A stretch of 62,173 nt of DNA. Origin: Chloroflexota bacterium (GTDB taxonomy: Bacteria; Chloroflexota; Dehalococcoidia; Lucifugimonadales; Australimonadaceae). The notes beneath the pieces are model-generated. The model was given only the letters and a program-made list of their open reading frames with translations, was not told the origin of the DNA and searched no databases. The position numbers were made by a program, and so were the translations under genes. Numbering within the stretch: position 1 is the stretch's first letter; every line of letters begins with the position of its first letter. Shown here in pieces: positions 31,332-51,060 of this stretch. The stretch lies in contig JAPPHT010000066.1 of the NCBI GenBank assembly GCA_028874795.1, positions 1-62,173 on the forward strand, read 5' to 3'.

Positions 31332-32369
31332 CTACAGAGGCTTTCGGGCCAGGAAGCAGTACAACGGCGTAAAGAGCCCGGCCCTGCCGCCTGCGACATA
31401 GGCCGTTGCGGTGCGGTCCACCAGCCTCATGACGTCAGCGGACCCTCTGGGAAACAGCCTGAACACCTCAGCCAGCCTGGCCATTCCGATGTACGCCTTC
31501 CTGCCCAGCGGGATCCTGCGCAGGGGGCTGCTCAGCATCTTACCCCGCGCCTCCATGGGGTGATACCACGGCGTGGCGGGGCCGTCTTCCACGACAGCCC
31601 GGTCCATGCCCTCGATGATCTGGAACCCCGCCAACTCGAGGGCCTGGTTCACTTCGCCCATAGTCGCTATATCGTTGAGCGCGATGCCGTGCATCAGCTC
31701 CCGCTTGATGGCCCGGTGCCGGCTGTCGTCTGGGTCGAACCGGTCTGTCATGCACATCTCCTGGCCCCAGAAGAGGGCCCCGGGTTTCAGGACGCGGTAG
31801 ACCTCGGCGAACGCAGCCGCCTTGTCCGGCGCGTGGCACGTCGATTCGATGGCGTAGCCCCGGTCGAACGTGCCGTCCGGGAATACGCCCATGTCCATGA
31901 AGCTGCACGCGAGGAGGTTGACCATGTGGTCGAGCCCCGCCTCAGCGGTCAACGATCTCGCCTTCCCCAACTGGACTTCACTGTTATTGATCCCGACGAC
32001 GCGGACGCCCGCCTCCCGGGCAACACGGCGCATGGGGCCGCCGATCCCGCAACCGACGTCGACAACGGTCATGCCCTCCTGCAACTCCAGCTTGGCGATC
32101 ATCAGCCGCTGATGCCGCGCCTGGGAGTCTTCCAGGCTCTCCCGAGGCGACAGCGGCGCGAAGTGGAGGGAGTCACTCCAGCCGAACACCATGAGCTCAT
32201 TGCACAGGTTGTAGTACTCGCTGACGGTCTCGGCGTGGTCGTAGCCGGCGGGGCCCGCGTCCTCCGCCTGCGCCCTGTCCATCCATCCGTCAAAGTGCTC
32301 CACGCGGCGGCGGACGTCCGACCCACGGTAGGCGGCCTTCAGCCCGCTGGATAGTTCGCGGAGATTCAC
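31332..32369 (-). CDS. Sterol C-24-methyltransferase-like enzyme
   Basis: 345 residues. All four signature regions of ERG6/SMT enzymes are visible: FGWSDSLHF (62-70, the sterol-binding YEYGWGxSFHF site), VDVGCGIGGP (103-112, SAM motif I), YAIESTCHAP (172-181), and KPGALFWGQEMCMTD (195-209). SMTs transfer methyl from SAM to the C-24 side-chain double bond of sterols. GTG start after TAGGAGG, eight bases from the end of the MMPL gene. No cyclase or squalene genes are here, so the substrate would be an acquired sterol or another isoprenoid or unsaturated lipid. A gamma-tocopherol- or CFA-type role is the alternative. Confidence 0.82.
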   Translation of the reverse strand: MNLRELSSGLKAAYRGSDVRRRVEHFDGWMDRAQAEDAGPAGYDHAETVSEYYNLCNELMVFGWSDSLHFAPLSPRESLEDSQARHQRLMIAKLELQEGMTVVDVGCGIGGPMRRVAREAGVRVVGINNSEVQLGKARSLTAEAGLDHMVNLLACSFMDMGVFPDGTFDRGYAIESTCHAPDKAAAFAEVYRVLKPGALFWGQEMCMTDRFDPDDSRHRAIKRELMHGIALNDIATMGEVNQALELAGFQIIEGMDRAVVEDGPATPWYHPMEARGKMLSSPLRRIPLGRKAYIGMARLAEVFRLFPRGSADVMRLVDRTATAYVAGGRAGLFTPLYCFLARKPL

Positions 32370-32377
32370 AGAGCCTC

Positions 32378-34861
32378 CTACGACGAGCCCTGTCCCTGCT
32401 CGTGACGCCGGTGTATATCATCGATCGCCACGTCCAACTCGGCCCACTGGCGCTCCACCATGGAGCGCAGCCGCATGTTCTGGTACGCGCCCCAGACCAC
32501 CATGGCCGGCAGCACCAGCAGCACAGAGACGACAAGGGAGTAGACGATCGTGATGGTCGCCGTGATGCCGAACTGCTGGGAAGCAAGCAAAGGCGAGGCT
32601 ATCAGGACTCCGAACCCCAGGGCCGTCGTCATCGCCGATCCCAAGAGCGCCGAACCCGTGGTTGCGAGCGTCCGTATCGCCGCGCTCTCCGGGTTTCGAG
32701 AGCGGGTGAACTCCTCGCGATAGCGATGGATCACGTGGATGGTGTAGTCGACGCCTATCCCTATCGATAGCGCCGTGATGATCGATGTGACGAGTGAGTA
32801 CGGGATACCCAGCAGTGCCATCGTGCCCAGTACCGAGATCAGGACCAGCACGATCGGTCCGACCGCGATGACCGCCAATGCCGGTTGGCGCGCCGTCAGC
32901 CAGAAGAAGACGGCGAGGACAGTGAGGGCTGCCGCGATGGTGGTGCTGATCGCCTCGGTTTGCCGATCCGTGATCGCGTCCGTAACCCCGATCGACACCA
33001 CGGTCTCCGAAAGCACCGTGAGCGCGGTATCTTCTCCAGCCCAGAGGGCCTCGAGGTCGCCTTGGAGCGTCTTGGTTGCTCCCGGATCGTTCGAGTAGGT
33101 CGGGAACTGCAGCAGGATGGTGTCGACGCCGTTCGGGTCATTAACCAGGCCGTGGGCGACCGCGGGGTCCCGCTCCGCGAGCTTGTCCAGGAGTTCCTGC
33201 ATCAGAGCCGGGTCGAGCTGCACTCCCGAGGAAGCTTCGCTGAAGAGCGCCGCAAGCTCCCGGTCGTAGTTGTCGCCGGGCTGTCCGGTGTCGGTGGTCC
33301 AGTCTTCCAGCAGCGACTCGTACGAAGCCAGGAGCGGCCCTGCCGCTGCGCGCGGGCGGCGCTGTTCGTCCAGGAAAGCGGTCCTGAGGTCCTGCAGGTT
33401 CAGGAGCGTACGGGTCCCTGTAGCCTCAGCCTTCACCAGTACGCTGGCCATCTCCGTCGAACCGCCGACGGTCGCGTCCAGCGTGTTCATGTCAGCTACG
33501 ATGGTCCCGCCCCTGGGGAGGATGTCGCGGATGCTGAACTCAGACTTGAGGTCCGTTGCCGCGAACCCCAGCGCGACCGTCACCGCGATCACGGCAAGGA
33601 TGTACGGCGCTGGCCAACGCGTCACCTTCCTTCCGAGGAACTCCGCCACCCGCGGTATGCCGGGCAGCGCGTTCGAAAGCGGCCGAGGCTGCCGCAACGT
33701 ACCGCGCGCCTCGCGCCGCCGGTCCAGGATCGTCCGCGCCGCCGGGACAAGCGTCAGCATCACGATCAGACTCATCCCCACACCCATCCCTGCCACAACT
33801 CCGAAGTCCCCGATCACGCCGATCGGCGAGAACAGGGTCGCCAACAGACTGACTATCGTCGTGACCGCGGCCAGCACCAGGGGGACCGTGACATTCCGCA
33901 GTCCGATCTGCACCGCCCGCACAACCGGCTCACCTTCGAGCCGCTGCTCCCGGTAGTGAGAGATCGCCTGGATCGCATAGTCCACCGTGAGGCTGATGAT
34001 GATGACAGGCACCATCGCGGTGAGCGAACTGGGAGGGCCTATCACGCCGAGTCCGTTCGGTCCCATCCAGCCTTCGGCGCCGACCAGCCACATGATCGCG
34101 ACGATGAGTCCCAGCAGAGTCAGCAGCATGTCCGACAGGGTGCGGGTGAAGAGCAGGAGCAGGGCGGCGATGAGCAGCAGCGCCAGACCGATCAGCGGCC
34201 CCATCCCCTCCTCAGTCGCCTTCTTGTAGGCATCCTCGATGACCGCCGATGACAAGCTGCTCACGCTCAGGGCGCCTTCGCTCCCGGCAGCCAGCTCGTT
34301 GATCCTTCGCTCGACTTCGGCGACCCGTTCGTCGTCCGTTTCGCGCAGGCCGATAGTGGCAACCGCGACGGAGGTACCATCCGTGTCCGTCCCGGTCATC
34401 GCAGCGAGCGCCTCGCCGATCCCTGGGACGTTGCGTGCGGAGTCGATCTGCTCCTGGGTGACCGCCTCGAGGCCGTCCACCCGGAGCACCGCGCTGATCA
34501 GCGTCGAGGGTGCAACGACCGGGTTAACAGGCGCCAGGAGCCCGGCCACACCCGGGTCCTGAACGATGTCATGCAACAAGCCATCCATCTGGGAAAGACC
34601 GTCCGGTGTGAGCGCCTGCCCACGAAAGAGGATCGTGACGACTATGACCTCACCGGAGTCCCGGAACCTGTCGTCTATCTCTCGTGTTGCTTCCGCGATG
34701 GGATGGCCGGGAGGAAGGAAGGCGACGCTTGCGCCCTCCGTCGGCGGCAGGCGTTGCGCCGTCCCCATAACCATAACGACGGTAACGATGAGGAGGACGA
34801 GGAGCGTGAGCCACGGACGGACTGTTACCAGCCTGCTCAGCCTGCCGAGTGTGTTGCTCAT
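32378..34861 (-). CDS. MMPL/RND-family lipid transporter
   Basis: 827 residues, two similar halves, each with one helix, a large extracytoplasmic loop and a five-helix bundle (about 215-370 and 650-800). RND marks: SLTVDYAIQAISHYRE in the first half and GIGVDYTIHVIHRYREE in the second, with the proton-relay Asp-Tyr. Layout fits MMPL/HpnN-like exporters of hydrophobic lipids (mycolates, PDIM, hopanoids), not multidrug AcrB pumps. Its stop is eight bases before the SMT-like gene. Lipid export is inferred from family and neighbours. Confidence 0.87.
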   Translation of the reverse strand: MSNTLGRLSRLVTVRPWLTLLVLLIVTVVMVMGTAQRLPPTEGASVAFLPPGHPIAEATREIDDRFRDSGEVIVVTILFRGQALTPDGLSQMDGLLHDIVQDPGVAGLLAPVNPVVAPSTLISAVLRVDGLEAVTQEQIDSARNVPGIGEALAAMTGTDTDGTSVAVATIGLRETDDERVAEVERRINELAAGSEGALSVSSLSSAVIEDAYKKATEEGMGPLIGLALLLIAALLLLFTRTLSDMLLTLLGLIVAIMWLVGAEGWMGPNGLGVIGPPSSLTAMVPVIIISLTVDYAIQAISHYREQRLEGEPVVRAVQIGLRNVTVPLVLAAVTTIVSLLATLFSPIGVIGDFGVVAGMGVGMSLIVMLTLVPAARTILDRRREARGTLRQPRPLSNALPGIPRVAEFLGRKVTRWPAPYILAVIAVTVALGFAATDLKSEFSIRDILPRGGTIVADMNTLDATVGGSTEMASVLVKAEATGTRTLLNLQDLRTAFLDEQRRPRAAAGPLLASYESLLEDWTTDTGQPGDNYDRELAALFSEASSGVQLDPALMQELLDKLAERDPAVAHGLVNDPNGVDTILLQFPTYSNDPGATKTLQGDLEALWAGEDTALTVLSETVVSIGVTDAITDRQTEAISTTIAAALTVLAVFFWLTARQPALAVIAVGPIVLVLISVLGTMALLGIPYSLVTSIITALSIGIGVDYTIHVIHRYREEFTRSRNPESAAIRTLATTGSALLGSAMTTALGFGVLIASPLLASQQFGITATITIVYSLVVSVLLVLPAMVVWGAYQNMRLRSMVERQWAELDVAIDDIHRRHEQGQGSS

Positions 34862-34959: not shown

Positions 34960-36036
34960 CTATTGTACAGTCCGCTCGAATGCATGGGGGAGTGATTCGG
35001 GGGTGTCTTGCGCGCTGGGATAGAACTGTGCGCAGTAGGCGCGGAACGCCATGATCTCCCCGTCGGAACGGCTGAGGCGAGGGAGAGGCCGGTACTGCTT
35101 GCGGCTCCAGATCACCACATCCTGACGAACGTCATGCTCCTGCTGCGACGCGATGAACCGGTTCATGATGGGTCCGCGCAGCCTCACGGGGAGGAACCCC
35201 AGACCTCCTATCCGCCGCTTCGGATCGTGTATCTCCCGCACCTGCGAGGCCAGCGACAGGTCGATGAGCGTACCGTCGACGGGCGTCGCCAGCACCCACA
35301 GGCGCGCATCCATCCCGATGGTGTGCTCGCGGATCTCCACGAACGAGTAGCCGAGACCGAAGATATGGGTGCAGGCGGAGACGTCCATGTTGAATGGTAT
35401 GGCCCCGGCTATCCGGTAACTCCGCCTGAAGTCGAAGTCGCTCCGGAGATAGGCTCCTTCCACCGATACTTCCGCGACGCGGTCCACGCTGCCGTACCCG
35501 TGAACGTAGCGCAGGTGGCCGAGGTCCACCGAGTTCTCCGTCGTATCCTGAGGATGCCCGGGGAAGCGGAGGGTCCGGACCGAGATGCCGCTCCAGCCGG
35601 TCTGGTCTGACAGGTCAGTGGGCAGGTCCCACTGCGGCTCCCGCCCCTCGATACCCCACCACGCGAAGACCAACCCGGCGACCTCCTGTGTCTCGAAGAC
35701 GTTCAACCGCGCGGCACGGGGTGGAGGAGCATAGGGGGTTGCGACGCACTGGCCTGTGACATCGTATTCGAAGCCGTGGAAGGGGCAGACGAGCCGGCCG
35801 TCGCGTATGCGCCCCCCGGCTGCAGGCCCCAGGTAGGAACCGAGGTGTGGACAGTAGGCCCCGGCGACGCAGATGCTCCCGCCATCATCGCACCAGACCA
35901 CGATGTTCTGCCCCATCCAGGTCTTCTGGATGAGCCCTTCTTTCTGTATGGCCTTGCGGCTTCCGATGAAGTACCAACCCTCGGGGAACGGGGAAGGCAA
36001 TGGGGCGTTGAGGGGCTCCCTTGGTCGGGTTGTCAT
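34960..36036 (-). CDS. Rieske oxygenase, KshA/Neverland (cholesterol desaturase)-like
   Basis: 358 residues from the ATG at 36036; in-frame ATGs at 36060 and 36084 are alternatives. Rieske ligands CPHLGSYLG and CPFHGFEYD. Mononuclear iron site DLGHLRYVH, a perfect D-x2-H-x4-H. The opening PEGWYFIGSRKAIQKEGLI and VAGLVFAWWG resemble 3-ketosteroid 9-alpha-hydroxylase oxygenase and the DAF-36/Neverland 7-desaturases, which act as single-chain enzymes on steroids. It lies in the operon between the MFS and MMPL genes. Steroid substrate is inference; a different hydrophobic substrate is possible. No reductase is present. Confidence 0.83.
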   Translation of the reverse strand: MTTRPREPLNAPLPSPFPEGWYFIGSRKAIQKEGLIQKTWMGQNIVVWCDDGGSICVAGAYCPHLGSYLGPAAGGRIRDGRLVCPFHGFEYDVTGQCVATPYAPPPRAARLNVFETQEVAGLVFAWWGIEGREPQWDLPTDLSDQTGWSGISVRTLRFPGHPQDTTENSVDLGHLRYVHGYGSVDRVAEVSVEGAYLRSDFDFRRSYRIAGAIPFNMDVSACTHIFGLGYSFVEIREHTIGMDARLWVLATPVDGTLIDLSLASQVREIHDPKRRIGGLGFLPVRLRGPIMNRFIASQQEHDVRQDVVIWSRKQYRPLPRLSRSDGEIMAFRAYCAQFYPSAQDTPESLPHAFERTVQ

Positions 36037-36135
36037 CGGTCGACGTTCCCTGTCCGTCATCCTGAGGCAAGAGGCGCCATCCAATTTAGATAGTAAGAGC
36101 CGCTTCTGTCTAATCGAGTCTCGACCCGGATCGCC

Positions 36136-37602
36136 TCAGATGAAGCTCCCATCTCCGTCCTGCCCGTCTTCCACCCTCATCAGCAGGGCCGGGAGGATGG
36201 CAAACAGGGCCAGGAACCCCGAGATCATGAACAGGTTCTGAAAGACCGTTACGCCGGCGTCTATCAGGGGGGCCTGGGTCTCCTCGTAGGACGACCCGAT
36301 CGTCACGTCAGCCGTCAGGCTGTAGAACCGCTCGATTCCCCAGGCGGACAGGGTGGCCAGCCCCAGTGCCATCCCCACCATCCTCGACGCGGTGACCAGT
36401 GAGGCCGCGGCCCCCCAATAGTGGCTGGGCGCCGCGCTCAAGGCGCTGACGCCTATGGGCGGGATAACCAGCCCGAACCCCAGGCCCGCCATGACCAGGG
36501 GCATGGTCAGCCTGAGCTCCTCTACCTCAGTCTCCCAACCACTCATGAACAGCAGGCCCGTTCCTATGAACGCAAGGCCCGTTATGCACACCGTCCTTAC
36601 GCCCGTCCAGCGCAGGATGTAGCCGCCCACCACCGCTCCCACAGGAATGGCGGCGGTCAGGCGGACCAGGTGGAGGGCGCTCTCCCACGCCCTCTTTTCC
36701 ATCACGGTCCCGGCCATCAGGGGCACCGCTACCAGGGAGATGATCAAGGCGACTCCCACGAGGAACTGAGTGATGTTGGAAGACAGGAACGCCCTGGAGG
36801 TGTACAGGAAGGATGCCAGCAGAGGCTGGACGGTGCGTCGCTCGAACAGGACCAATACAAGGACCAGGGAGACCCCCAGGGCTATCAGCACGTACGGGAA
36901 GAGGGACTCTCCGGAGAAGATCGCTCTCTGGGACAAGCCGATGCTGAGGACGGTGAGGGCTGCTCCGAGCACGAGGGCCCCGAAGTAGTCCATCCTGGCT
37001 GCAGGATTGGCGCGGTTCGGCAGGATGGCCAGCAGCGCTATCAGGATGAAGCTCTGCGGTATGTCGAGCCAGAATATCCACCGCCAACCGAGCAACTCTA
37101 TGATGGCCCCTCCATAGAGAGGGCCAAGAACGGACCCGGCTTCAGCCGATGCAGCCACGAGTCCGATCGCAACTCCCCTTCTCTCCGGCGACACAGCAGC
37201 CACGGCCATGGCGAGGCCTATGGGGACCGTGGCGCCGCCTCCGAAGGCTTGCACGACCCTGGCGGACACCACCCACTCGAAGTTCGGCGCAAGCGCCACG
37301 AACGCCGAACCGATGGAGAAGACGATCAAGGCTGCCTGAAACATCCTGACACGCCCGTAGACGTCGGACAGGCGCCCCGCCAGTGGCATCGCCACGGTGT
37401 AGCTGATCAGATAGCCGGTCACGATCCAGGACGCCCTGTCCAGGTCCGTTAGGGGGATCTCCAGGTCCACCATGACGGCGGGCAGGGCGGCGACGACCAC
37501 GGTCTGGTCCAGGGCAGTCGAGAATACTCCCAGGCAGATGATCCCAAGCACCACCGTCTCGGAAGAGCGCAGGGAGGTCAGGCGGGGTCCGGCAGCGTTC
37601 AC
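36136..37602 (-). CDS. DHA2-type MFS exporter, P55-like
   Basis: 488 residues with about 14 membrane segments. Antiporter motif region SDVYGRVRMFQAALIVFSIGS and the loop after helix 2 (GRLSDVYGR), with GASAEAGSVLGPLYGG (motif C) near residue 150. EmrB/QacA-type. GTG start overlapping the stop of the LppX-like lipoprotein gene by four bases (GTGA). This lipoprotein-MFS pairing is the arrangement of the mycobacterial lprG-Rv1410c operon, where the pair moves lipids to the outer envelope. Confidence 0.87.
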   Translation of the reverse strand: MNAAGPRLTSLRSSETVVLGIICLGVFSTALDQTVVVAALPAVMVDLEIPLTDLDRASWIVTGYLISYTVAMPLAGRLSDVYGRVRMFQAALIVFSIGSAFVALAPNFEWVVSARVVQAFGGGATVPIGLAMAVAAVSPERRGVAIGLVAASAEAGSVLGPLYGGAIIELLGWRWIFWLDIPQSFILIALLAILPNRANPAARMDYFGALVLGAALTVLSIGLSQRAIFSGESLFPYVLIALGVSLVLVLVLFERRTVQPLLASFLYTSRAFLSSNITQFLVGVALIISLVAVPLMAGTVMEKRAWESALHLVRLTAAIPVGAVVGGYILRWTGVRTVCITGLAFIGTGLLFMSGWETEVEELRLTMPLVMAGLGFGLVIPPIGVSALSAAPSHYWGAAASLVTASRMVGMALGLATLSAWGIERFYSLTADVTIGSSYEETQAPLIDAGVTVFQNLFMISGFLALFAILPALLMRVEDGQDGDGSFI

Positions 37603-38345
37603 GACCCTGAGGTTACTTCTGGGAGTTGGATGTCGACAGGCGCGTCGATGTCCTCGATGACTACCAGACGCGTCGTCTCAGGCGCGTCCTCGTCGTAGAG
37701 CTTGCCGGCAATCCTCAGCTGCTTCAGGTTGTGCGAGACCTCGTCGATCCACAGGGTCAAAGTGATGGCATGACCGGAGTCCACATCCGTAATGAGGCCC
37801 GACATCTCCTCAGACACGACATCTCCGTATATCCGGATTGCCTGGGCGCCTCCCACGGACTCGCGTCCCGTAATCGCCGGGGCCTCGATCACGAGTAGAA
37901 TCTCGCTCAAAGTGACACCTATCCCTCCGAAGTTGAAGGGTACGGCGTCCACAGGCAGCGAGGTCCACGGCGCGTCCGCGGAGAACTTCATGTAGGCCTG
38001 CTCCCCCACCGCCATCATCTCGATCTCAACGAATCCCAGGCCGGGGTTCACCAACTCCACCAGCATCCTGAAACTGTCGGGAGTCTTTACTTCGCCCTCA
38101 ACGCTCTTCAGGGTCATCTCAAAGAACTTCGCTCCAGATTCCATCTCGTCCACCATCTGGAACTTCGCGGTGGACAGCGCGGCCAGTTCTTCCGCCGCAC
38201 CGGAAAGCACATCCTCCACTGACAACTCGGGGGTCGGAGTGGGTTCCGCTTCGCATGCTGCCAGGAGCAGGATTCCCACGGCCAGCACAGCCATCGACAA
38301 CCTGCGACCCAACGCTGATCGGTTGGTTGGAGCGAGCGCCGTCAT
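37599..38345 (-). CDS. LppX/LprG-like lipid-carrier lipoprotein
   Basis: 248 residues from the ATG at 38345. Lipoprotein signal with lipobox LLAAC. After a short PTPTPELS tether the domain shows the LppX_LprAFG pattern: alternating strands (AKFQMVDEMESGAKFFEM, IEMMAVGEQAYMKFSAD, QAIRIYGDVV) forming a hydrophobic half-barrel. These proteins carry lipids such as PDIM or triacylated lipids between the membrane and outer layers. Overlaps the MFS gene by four bases. Confidence 0.82.
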   Translation of the reverse strand: MTALAPTNRSALGRRLSMAVLAVGILLLAACEAEPTPTPELSVEDVLSGAAEELAALSTAKFQMVDEMESGAKFFEMTLKSVEGEVKTPDSFRMLVELVNPGLGFVEIEMMAVGEQAYMKFSADAPWTSLPVDAVPFNFGGIGVTLSEILLVIEAPAITGRESVGGAQAIRIYGDVVSEEMSGLITDVDSGHAITLTLWIDEVSHNLKQLRIAGKLYDEDAPETTRLVVIEDIDAPVDIQLPEVTSGS

Positions 38346-38415
38346 CGTGCGGTTCACCGTACCACCCGAAAATGGCGGCGGGCAAGCACTGGCCCAGCGG
38401 TGGCTGGGTGGGGCT

Positions 38416-39804
38416 TCATCGCCTGGCTTTCCTGAACCGCCAGCCATACATGATGCTTCCGTAGTAGTTGAACCGCCTCCTCGCCGCGGAGTCTTCGAAG
38501 GGGTAGTCCGCGCCGAGCTGTCTTGCCGTTGCAAGTCCGGAGACGAAGCAGGTCTCCTGGCTGTTCACCAGGGTATGAGCGCCGCAATGCCACGTTCGCC
38601 TCTTGCCCTGGATGCACCGGAACAGGTTCACGAGCAGGACAACGTGACGCACATCGTGGACGATATGCTGGAACCACCATTTCTTCACGATCTTCCGCTC
38701 ATCGATGGGGCTGACCGGGTTGTAGGTCACGAGACACGGCTTGTCGGACCGACCGGCCCATGGCTGCTGGTTGTGCATGATGTAGGTGATCTCGTAGTTG
38801 TCCGGTCTCGCGCCGTACTGCTCGATGTGATTGCTCCGCGTTGTCAGTGGCTTCACGTCGTTGTCGGGAAGGACAGAGGAGTCGTAGTGGACGACCGTGT
38901 GGTTGTGCAGTTCGCTCTCGTAACGTATCGAAGACAGGATGTAGCGCTCGAGGAGCGTGGGTTTATCGAGGACCATCAGGCTCTGGTTCGCATTGCAGGC
39001 GAGGATGACATCGTCGAACTCTTCCCGTGCGCCTTCATGGTCCTCTACCACGACCCCGGACCCCTGCCGGTACACCTTCCGAACGGGCCGGTTGAGGTAG
39101 ATCCTGTCCCGGAAGTTGGCCGACAGGTTCTCGTAGATGCGCCGCGTACCCTGGTCCCACGTCTGCATGGGAGTTGCGGTCTCTATATCGAAGAAATCGA
39201 GATACCTCGTGAAGAGGGCCGCGGGCATGTCGAACACGTTGGTCGCCATCAGGAAGTTGACGAACATGGGCTTCAGGACCTTGTACCTGAAGTCCCCGGA
39301 GAACCCTCCCAGGTTGAGCACCGTCCCCATGCTGATGTAGTTGAACGGATTCAGGGCGTTCAGGCACTTCGACTGCGACCGTGTCAGCCAGCCGAAGCGT
39401 CGTAGACGCCGCAGCACGCGCTGGAACTTCGCGATCTCGGTCTGCAGTTGCTCCCTGAGGTCTGAATCGAAGTCGTGGGCATAGACCTGGCCCGCGTACT
39501 TCACGCTGTAGCTGAACCTCGTATCGACCAGTTCGATGCCGAACCTCTTCATCACCAACAGGATGTGGTGATAGACGGACGGGATGCAGGCGGTAACTGA
39601 GATGTCGAAGGGGATCGAGCTGCCGTCGTCCTGCGGCATGTCGACGGTAACCGCGTTGCCGCCGATCCGGTCCTGTGCCTCGAACAGCCGGAAGTCGAAA
39701 CGGTCCGGGTGGTGATGGAGCGCCCATGCAGCACCCAACCCCGAAACTCCCCCGCCCACGATAGCGATCCGCCGCGGCGCTGTCCTTGTCTCCTTGCTTG
39801 CCAT
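38416..39804 (-). CDS. FAD-dependent amine-oxidase-fold oxidoreductase
   Basis: 462 residues from the ATG at 39804 (AGGACTACAGG upstream). Rossmann loop AIVGGGVSGLGAAWALHHH and the second FAD segment DRIGGNAVTVDM near residue 50. It resembles the FAD proteins that accompany CFA-synthase-type methyltransferases, including the desaturase step of furan fatty-acid synthesis, rather than true monoamine oxidases. First gene of the lipid operon, so it is likely to act on a lipid (dehydrogenation). Substrate unknown. Confidence 0.83.
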   Translation of the reverse strand: MASKETRTAPRRIAIVGGGVSGLGAAWALHHHPDRFDFRLFEAQDRIGGNAVTVDMPQDDGSSIPFDISVTACIPSVYHHILLVMKRFGIELVDTRFSYSVKYAGQVYAHDFDSDLREQLQTEIAKFQRVLRRLRRFGWLTRSQSKCLNALNPFNYISMGTVLNLGGFSGDFRYKVLKPMFVNFLMATNVFDMPAALFTRYLDFFDIETATPMQTWDQGTRRIYENLSANFRDRIYLNRPVRKVYRQGSGVVVEDHEGAREEFDDVILACNANQSLMVLDKPTLLERYILSSIRYESELHNHTVVHYDSSVLPDNDVKPLTTRSNHIEQYGARPDNYEITYIMHNQQPWAGRSDKPCLVTYNPVSPIDERKIVKKWWFQHIVHDVRHVVLLVNLFRCIQGKRRTWHCGAHTLVNSQETCFVSGLATARQLGADYPFEDSAARRRFNYYGSIMYGWRFRKARR

Positions 39805-39828
39805 CGCCTGTAGTCCTGCCACTGCTCC

Positions 39829-39834
39829 TATAAT
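39829..39834 (+). promoter_or_regulatory. -10 element (TATAAT) upstream of the PKS
   Basis: Perfect TATAAT in the 71-base gap between the divergent FAD oxidoreductase and PKS genes, 41 bases before the PKS ATG. No good -35 at 17 bases (TTGCCA at 39798 is 25 bases away), so confidence is modest. The gap must also carry the start of the six-gene minus-strand operon. Confidence 0.4.
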
Positions 39835-39875
39835 GCACCTGTCAGTCTGCAACACAAGAGGATGCAGGGAAAACG

Positions 39876-49943
<10,068 letters not shown>

Positions 49944-50322: not shown

Positions 50323-51060
50323 ATGGCGATGATTGCCCCGACTTCTCCTGAGAGCCTTTCGCCTGTTCCGGGCCTCTGGTGGAGTCCGTTCACGACCAGG
50401 GCCGGCGTGCAGGTTATGCACGTCGCCCTGAGCCCCGATCCGGCCCGCGAGGCCGAGGCGTACGGGTGGCTGGACGAGACGGAGCGGGAAGCATGGCGGA
50501 AGTATCTGCCCCAGCCGCGCCGTCAGTTCACCCTCTGCCGCGCCGCACTGCGCGCCATCCTCTGCGAGCAGTTCGGCTGCCGCAACGACCACCTTTCGTT
50601 CGGCGCAGCCCGTCACGGGAAGCCGTTCGCCATGGCGGGTAGAGCGCGTCTTCCGCTCAACTTCAACGTCAGTCACAGCGGCGGCCACGGCCTGATCGCC
50701 CTGTCGGCGGGTGGCCGGTTGGGGGTAGACGTCGAAGAGCGCATCCCGAGACGCTACCTGAACGAACTGATAGAGGCGGTCATGGGGCCGGAAGAGCAGA
50801 CGGAACTTGCCGCTCTTCGAGAGCCCGCTAAACTGCATCTGTTCTACCGCCTGTGGACGCTCAAGGAGGCGCTGATCAAGGCTCTGGGCACAGGGTTCTC
50901 CACCGATCCCTCCGGGTTCCAGGCGCCTCCCGCGATGCGCAGGGGCGGCATGGACGGCGTATTCAGCTTTCCGCACCTGCCGTCTGTCGCCTGGAGGCTG
51001 GCGGACATCGGGGACGAGCGGTTCGCTGCCGCCCTCGGCTATGAGTTGGAGAGCCCGTAG
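50323..51060 (+). CDS. Sfp-type 4'-phosphopantetheinyl transferase
   Basis: 245 residues. Motifs in order: FNVSHSGGHGLIALS (about 109-123), LGVDVEE with the Mg-binding Asp/Glu, and FYRLWTLKEALIKALGTG (about 168-185). It transfers phosphopantetheine from CoA to Ser of carrier proteins, here presumably the PKS ACP and the free ACP 50 bases upstream. ATG after GGAGAGATGC. Overlaps or abuts the next hydrolase gene. Confidence 0.9.
   Translation: MAMIAPTSPESLSPVPGLWWSPFTTRAGVQVMHVALSPDPAREAEAYGWLDETEREAWRKYLPQPRRQFTLCRAALRAILCEQFGCRNDHLSFGAARHGKPFAMAGRARLPLNFNVSHSGGHGLIALSAGGRLGVDVEERIPRRYLNELIEAVMGPEEQTELAALREPAKLHLFYRLWTLKEALIKALGTGFSTDPSGFQAPPAMRRGGMDGVFSFPHLPSVAWRLADIGDERFAAALGYELESP

Follow-up and report, generated by a model that had tools for sequence, protein, structure and literature searches.

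A divergent clade of bacterial sterol methyltransferase homologues associated with a P450 and Rieske gene cassette in candidate sponge symbionts

By its sequence, a sterol methyltransferase (SMT) homologue of a Chloroflexota bacterium belongs to a distinct bacterial subfamily of that enzyme family. At least 80 genomes from seven phyla hold members of this subfamily, which is tied, as a conserved cassette, to a cytochrome P450 fused to a GPP34 domain and to a KshA-like Rieske oxygenase, often with an RND pump and an FAD oxidoreductase alongside. The gene lies in the 62,173 nucleotides of contig JAPPHT010000066.1 (assembly GCA_028874795.1) that were analysed here, hereafter called the window. 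We named the subfamily “M-type”, from the Met that replaces the catalytic Tyr81 of yeast Erg6. The reading that we favour, with a probability of roughly 55%, is that the M-type SMT is a SAM-dependent sterol C-methyltransferase working on acquired sterols together with the P450, the Rieske protein and, often, an FAD enzyme, the product being exported by an RND-type pump. What appears to be new is the clade, with its remodelled active site and conserved cassette, bacterial SMT genes per se being already known; our literature search found no paper on the M-type SMT clade and none on GPP34-P450 fusions.

Fossil steranes are used to document early eukaryotes and animals, and bacterial SMTs have so far been known mainly within sterol synthesis or as single genes. 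Our results suggest that bacteria with the cassette, in at least seven phyla, rework and export host-derived sterols. If true, the recurrence of such a cassette in sponge symbionts that make no sterol would mean that the microbiome can alter the sterols of its host and that a sponge’s own genes need not account for its sterol profile; the cassette could then include the enzymes still sought for 26-methyl sterols and other unusual sterols of sponges.

The M-type methyltransferase and its altered region I

The SMT ORF has exactly the boundaries given in Table 1; it is intact, with 345 codons, a GTG start and a strong ribosome-binding site (AGGAGG) 4 nt before it. The initial annotation, made from the sequence alone, had called it a bacterial SMT homologue, and the family searches agree: a class I SAM-methyltransferase domain (Methyltransf_11, 63.3 bits for a cut-off of 21.2, with matches to Methyltransf_25/31 as well) is found together with a C-terminal Sterol_MT_C domain (cut-off 21.7), a family with zero matches among 14 control genomes. 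It is the only Sterol_MT_C gene detected in this 3.33-Mb genome, 97% complete, for which all genome-wide statements are based on family searches. Nothing was seen of a placement among tocopherol or CFA methyltransferases, which the annotation had named as contrary to its claim: the CFA/mycolic models of NCBIfam gave 43–61 bits, far below their cut-offs of 390–650, and the Pfam CMAS model is exceeded (66.6 bits), but yeast Erg6 exceeds it too. The nearest characterised relatives are 24-SMTs: BLASTP identity is 40% with SMT1 of Arabidopsis and 35% with Erg6 of yeast, whose reference sequence scores 97 bits for Sterol_MT_C. The AlphaFold2 model (pLDDT 85, pTM 0.85) is that of a class I methyltransferase, and its best solved matches in Foldseek are the natural-product methyltransferases AtmM, TleD, RebM and MitM, with no eukaryotic SMT structure among these best matches.

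The annotation had reported all four SMT signature regions, which is not supported in that form. Those seen are the sterol-binding FGW-x2-S-x-HF site (FGWSDSLHF), the SAM motif VDVGCGIGGP and region III (YAIESTCHAPD), along with the C-terminal AYVAGGRAGLFTPLYCFLARKP; the SAM motif and region III correspond to the DVGCGxGGP and YAIExTCHAP of sterol 24-C-methyltransferase (EC 2.1.1.41). Region I agrees only partly: instead of the YEYGWG of that enzyme class, the window SMT has M V F G W S at the positions of Erg6 Y81 E82 Y83 G84 W85 G86.

This alteration extends to the whole clade. A scan of bacterial genomes yielded 108 relatives, 80 of which were retained, with 61–81% identity and conservation over the full length; they belong to Chloroflexota, Pseudomonadota, Actinomycetota, Acidobacteriota, Gemmatimonadota and Dadabacteria, plus a Truepera MAG. 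The region I consensus of the clade is M(V/Q)(F/W/Y)GW(G/S/N), versus YEYGWG in known 24-SMTs. All 81 clade sequences have Met for Tyr81, Leu for Phe89 and Gln for Tyr223 (Erg6 numbering); Glu82 is mostly replaced by Val or Gln, Trp85 is retained and, in nearly all sequences, Glu108 has become Gln, Glu246 Met and Asp249 Ile. The aromatic and acid residues of region I, to which stabilisation of the C-24 cation is ascribed, are thus changed clade-wide, so that the substrate or the methylated carbon may differ from those of 24-SMTs.

In an IQ-TREE phylogeny of 65 sequences, with three eukaryotic references only and without the sequences of Brown et al., the M-type clade (49 sampled rows) has a support of 100/100 and a stem length of 0.98; it contains no eukaryotic and no other bacterial SMT of the tree and does not fall among the characterised 24-SMTs. 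The phylogeny that the annotation had proposed as a check thus returns a clade of its own, away from eukaryotic and from YEYGWG-type bacterial SMTs. Phyla are intermixed within the clade (12 changes of phylum versus a minimum of 6), which makes transfer of the gene between symbionts likely. Among 350 Chloroflexota genomes, SMT matches fall into two classes, at 66–100% (M-type) and 38–42% (other type), and some M-type carriers have a YEYGWG-type SMT as a separate paralogue. In the genome of locus L006, a second M-type SMT (L174), 67% identical to that of the window, lies on a 4.8-kb contig together with a separate P450 and pump, being either a duplicate cassette or a binning error. Two genomes (G043 and G050, loci L160 and L166) encode SMTs of yet another, divergent lineage, the third, with YVFGWG as region I in L160; both genomes also have an epoxidase-cyclase fusion.

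When the window was compared with L006 and L016, the SMT and the Rieske protein had a dN about three times that of the P450 and the MFS exporter, at similar dS; these two proteins thus appear to change faster, under purifying selection. A recombinational swap-in of the SMT, considered for its conservation of 81% versus 84–95% in most neighbours, was rejected, its dS being 0.50 versus 0.43–0.62 and the gap lying in dN.

A recurrent gene cassette

The P450, Rieske and RND genes around the SMT (Table 1) had been missed by the initial annotation, as had the functional bacterial SMTs published in 2023 (PMC10070321).

Table 1. The M-type SMT and its neighbours in the window (bit scores are those of the families named).
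Feature	Position	Strand	Evidence
GPP34 domain fused to cytochrome P450	29229..31301	+	GPP34 112 bits, p450 122 bits; convergent with SMT, 30-bp gap
Sterol methyltransferase homologue, M-type clade, 345 aa	31332..32369	-	Sterol_MT_C 54.5 bits; clade support 100/100; RBS AGGAGG
RND/MMPL (HAE3-like) transporter	32378..34861	-	MMPL 148, Patched 42, sterol-sensing-domain 37 bits, all above cut-off; 8 bp upstream of SMT
Rieske oxygenase, KshA-type C-terminal domain	34960..36084	-	KshA_C 76 bits, Rieske 63 bits
MFS (DHA2-type) exporter	36136..37602	-	MFS_1 144 bits; EmrB-like 181 bits, below cut-off; overlaps lipoprotein gene
LppX/LprAFG-type lipid-carrier lipoprotein	37599..38534	-	LppX_LprAFG 33.8 bits, cut-off 24
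FAD-dependent oxidoreductase (amine-oxidase/protoporphyrinogen-oxidase-like)	38416..39855	-	Amino_oxidase 67 bits

The catalytic ligands of both oxygenases are conserved: Cys629, the ExxR motif and the heme loop are invariant in the GPP34-P450 (46/46), as are the 2Fe-2S and mononuclear iron ligands in the Rieske protein (39/39). The GPP34 (Golgi phosphoprotein 3) domain is N-terminal in the P450, and the fusion is conserved in the SMT carriers. The I-helix of the P450 reads (S/G)xYLGDA, without the usual acid-threonine pair, and the best solved relatives of this protein include CYP51 and a taxadiene hydroxylase. For the Rieske protein, the best PDB match is a 3-ketosteroid 9alpha-hydroxylase, in an alignment that covers residues 22–195 only; its identification as the C-4 sterol demethylase SdmA was rejected (NCBIfam NF052579, 27.3 bits versus a cut-off of 600, in the Rieske domain only). 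Matches to sterol-sensing-domain (SSD) models are common in MMPL proteins, and those of the transporter are to be read accordingly. The true start of the lipoprotein is probably near 38350, with a lipobox LLAAC. At 8 kb from the SMT, the window also encodes a type I PKS of 3256 aa (40173–49943), followed by a phosphopantetheinyl transferase at 50323; the first ketosynthase of this PKS seemingly lacks its N-terminal part, the NCBIfam match starting at profile position 83. We rejected the PKS as a part of the cassette, since only one of the 80 SMTs has nearby relatives of the phosphopantetheinyl transferase and the alpha/beta hydrolase that flank the PKS.

Across the 80 SMT loci, with flanks of up to 10 kb per side, the GPP34-P450 is present in 46 and the Rieske gene in 42. 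The FAD enzyme (22/80, in several phyla), the MMPL pump (22/80), the MFS exporter (6/80) and the LppX/LprAFG lipoprotein (6/80) are found beside fewer SMTs, the FAD enzyme and the pumps thus not being universal neighbours; Gram-negative carriers often have AcrB-, HlyD- and TolC-type (OEP) genes near the SMT instead. Gene order and strand vary from locus to locus; the gene set stays. The association is closer at the level of whole genomes, where 47 of 50 SMT carriers have the GPP34-P450 and 46 of 50 the KshA-like Rieske. It is also seen among the 350 Chloroflexota genomes, where the P450 (identity of at least 54%) was detected in 22/22 M-type carriers versus 4/328 non-carriers and the Rieske (identity of at least 58%) in 21/22 versus 3/328; a few genomes have the two enzymes but no M-type SMT.

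Sterol source, proposed pathway and alternatives

No match to squalene epoxidase (PF08491) was found in the window genome, and oxidosqualene cyclase (OSC) is absent from it as well, the sole cyclase having the DIDDSA motif and being SHC-like; the pair of enzymes required for de novo bacterial sterol synthesis is therefore lacking, and the squalene-synthesis genes are of the HpnC/HpnD/HpnE type. Fusions of the epoxidase with OSC are present in seven of the 50 SMT carriers (L031, L041, L058, L062, L067, L069, and L083), and 29 of the 50 gave no match to any triterpene cyclase. MAGs may miss genes, which makes the absence of OSC from a single genome weak evidence, but not its absence from 43 of 50, and such gaps alone are unlikely to account for the missing cyclases and epoxidases. 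With so few fusions and so many carriers devoid of cyclase, sterols or hopanoids of the bacterium’s own making cannot be the substrate in general, and acquisition of sterols offers the simplest explanation. The SMT substrate is thus probably a sterol taken up rather than made by the bacterium, as the initial annotation had proposed.

Many of the relatives bear isolate prefixes (RHO, COS, IRC, APA) that fit the sponge hosts studied in PMC8163846; judging from such names, all the relatives’ records would be sponge-derived, and the window genome, by extension from its relatives, would also come from a sponge. In Candidatus Versatilivorator vitaminiformans (L170, 203–4774, minus strand), a single frame of 1524 aa encodes squalene epoxidase, oxidosqualene cyclase (WPVTDCTAE) and SMT as one fusion; six carriers besides that genome have epoxidase-cyclase fusions of two domains.

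In the pathway that we propose, sterols would be taken up from the sponge host or from sterol-making neighbours. The steroid would then be oxidised by the membrane-associated GPP34-P450, the KshA-like Rieske and the FAD oxidoreductase, before the M-type SMT methylates it, probably, as 24-SMTs do, through electrophilic attack of SAM on a double bond of the side chain. A lipid-type exporter would finally move the product out, this being the MMPL/RND pump here and AcrB/HlyD/TolC-type systems in several Gram-negative carriers.

The carbon that is methylated leaves room for two close alternatives. The enzyme could be an ordinary 24-SMT, acting at C-24 of acquired delta-24 or 24-methylene sterols despite its region I, in the manner of the sponge-symbiont SMTs already tested, 8/10 of which methylated desmosterol; its identity of 35–40% to eukaryotic 24-SMTs and its conserved region III fit this, and the clade falls within the search filter of PMC10070321, so that members may sit among the 7966 homologues collected there. 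We consider this possible but doubtful: the substitutions of Tyr81, Phe89 and Tyr223 in 81/81 sequences, together with the acid residues at 82, 108, 246 and 249 being replaced in most sequences, speak against it, and the YEYGWG-type SMT that coexists in some carriers points to a different job for the M-type. The C-24 regiospecificity given in the initial annotation is accordingly not supported as it was stated, region I being altered clade-wide and the clade standing apart in the tree. Conversely, methylation might target C-26 of side chains with a delta-25 double bond, which would make the enzyme the “26-SMT” that underlies aplysterol and 26-methylstigmastane, or else C-4 of a 3-oxo sterol, as in the nematode 4-SMT, which lacks the region I aromatics (PMC6997595) and has as partners a Rieske 7-desaturase and sterol C3 oxidation, where the cassette has a Rieske and an FAD oxidoreductase. 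The 26-SMTs are stated to be undiscovered (PMC10070321), and in Aplysina aerophoba the main sterol is aplysterol; the M-type clade is, however, closer to 24-SMTs than the nematode 4-SMT is, when the latter is judged from its published identity to Erg6, and we deem such a new regiospecificity rather unlikely. The same reserve applies to the broader and speculative picture in which an M-type SMT acting at C-26 or on ring A would form the centre of a mobile cassette for sterol remodelling and export, shared by many sponge-symbiont phyla, part of the unusual sponge sterols, biomarker precursors included, being finished by organisms that make no sterol. Our estimates for the favoured reading and for these two alternatives overlap, since they differ only in the carbon methylated.

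A substrate other than a steroid, whether a polyketide, a polyprenoid or a hopanoid of the bacterium’s own making, would suit the altered region I, the HpnC/HpnD/HpnE genes and SHC-type cyclase of the window genome and the proximity of the PKS. It seems improbable to us, given that the genes flanking the PKS recur near a single SMT out of 80, that the Rieske resembles steroid hydroxylases and that the C-terminal sterol domain is retained; a hopanoid in particular is made unlikely by the 29/50 carriers without triterpene cyclase. Least credible, in our opinion, is a cassette serving steroid breakdown or detoxification rather than the production of an exported sterol: exporters recur in the SMT loci, the window ORFs examined showed no ring-cleavage gene and C-methylation is not known as a step of steroid degradation pathways. 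It has in its favour that sponge metagenomes are enriched in steroid degradation genes, a divergent KshA among them, and that such a pathway has been proposed for SAR202 (PMC5790920). We thus retain the methylation and export of acquired sterols as the best explanation of the cassette.

Comparison with known systems

Several components of the cassette recall characterised systems. The Rieske protein shares with KshA, the 3-ketosteroid 9alpha-hydroxylase, its Rieske and KshA_C domains and all iron ligands, but differs from it in the partial extent of its best PDB alignment. In mycobacteria, LprG-P55 is a lipoprotein and MFS pair for lipid export, which the overlapping LppX/LprAFG-type lipoprotein and MFS exporter genes of the window resemble, although this pair is restricted to 6/80 loci.

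The M-type SMT has in common with eukaryotic 24-SMTs (yeast Erg6, plant SMT1/SMT2) the fold class, the SAM motif, YAIExTCHAP, PW[YW] and GGxxxxFTP...ARKP; it differs by its region I, by Y223Q, E108Q and E246M/D249I in nearly all sequences and by its separate clade. According to PMC6997595, C-24 methylation relies on cation-pi chemistry that requires the region I aromatics. The nematode sterol C4alpha-methyltransferase (4-SMT) is an SMT homologue without these aromatics that acts on acquired cholesterol in concert with a Rieske desaturase (PMC6997595); its identity to Erg6 is 21%, versus 35% for the window SMT, in which Tyr81 is gone while the aromatic residue at 83 and Trp85 are retained.

The closest parallel is found in the bacterial and sponge-symbiont SMTs of Brown et al. 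(2023, PMC10070321), shown to be functional in vitro; three of them can make the 24-isopropyl side chain, and two of the ten symbiont enzymes were inactive on the two substrates used. The window SMT would pass the search filter of that study (E < 1e-50 and more than 30% identity to the yeast SMT). Both sets belong to the Sterol_MT_C family and come from sponge-associated uncultured bacteria (judging from record names for the M-type), and some of the genomes or contigs of Brown et al., such as those of Chlamydiae, likewise have no other sterol genes. As far as can be compared by description, many of their SMTs lie in sterol-synthesis clusters with OSC or sdmAB, whereas most carriers of the M-type SMT are without OSC and the gene is linked to the GPP34-P450 and the KshA-like Rieske.
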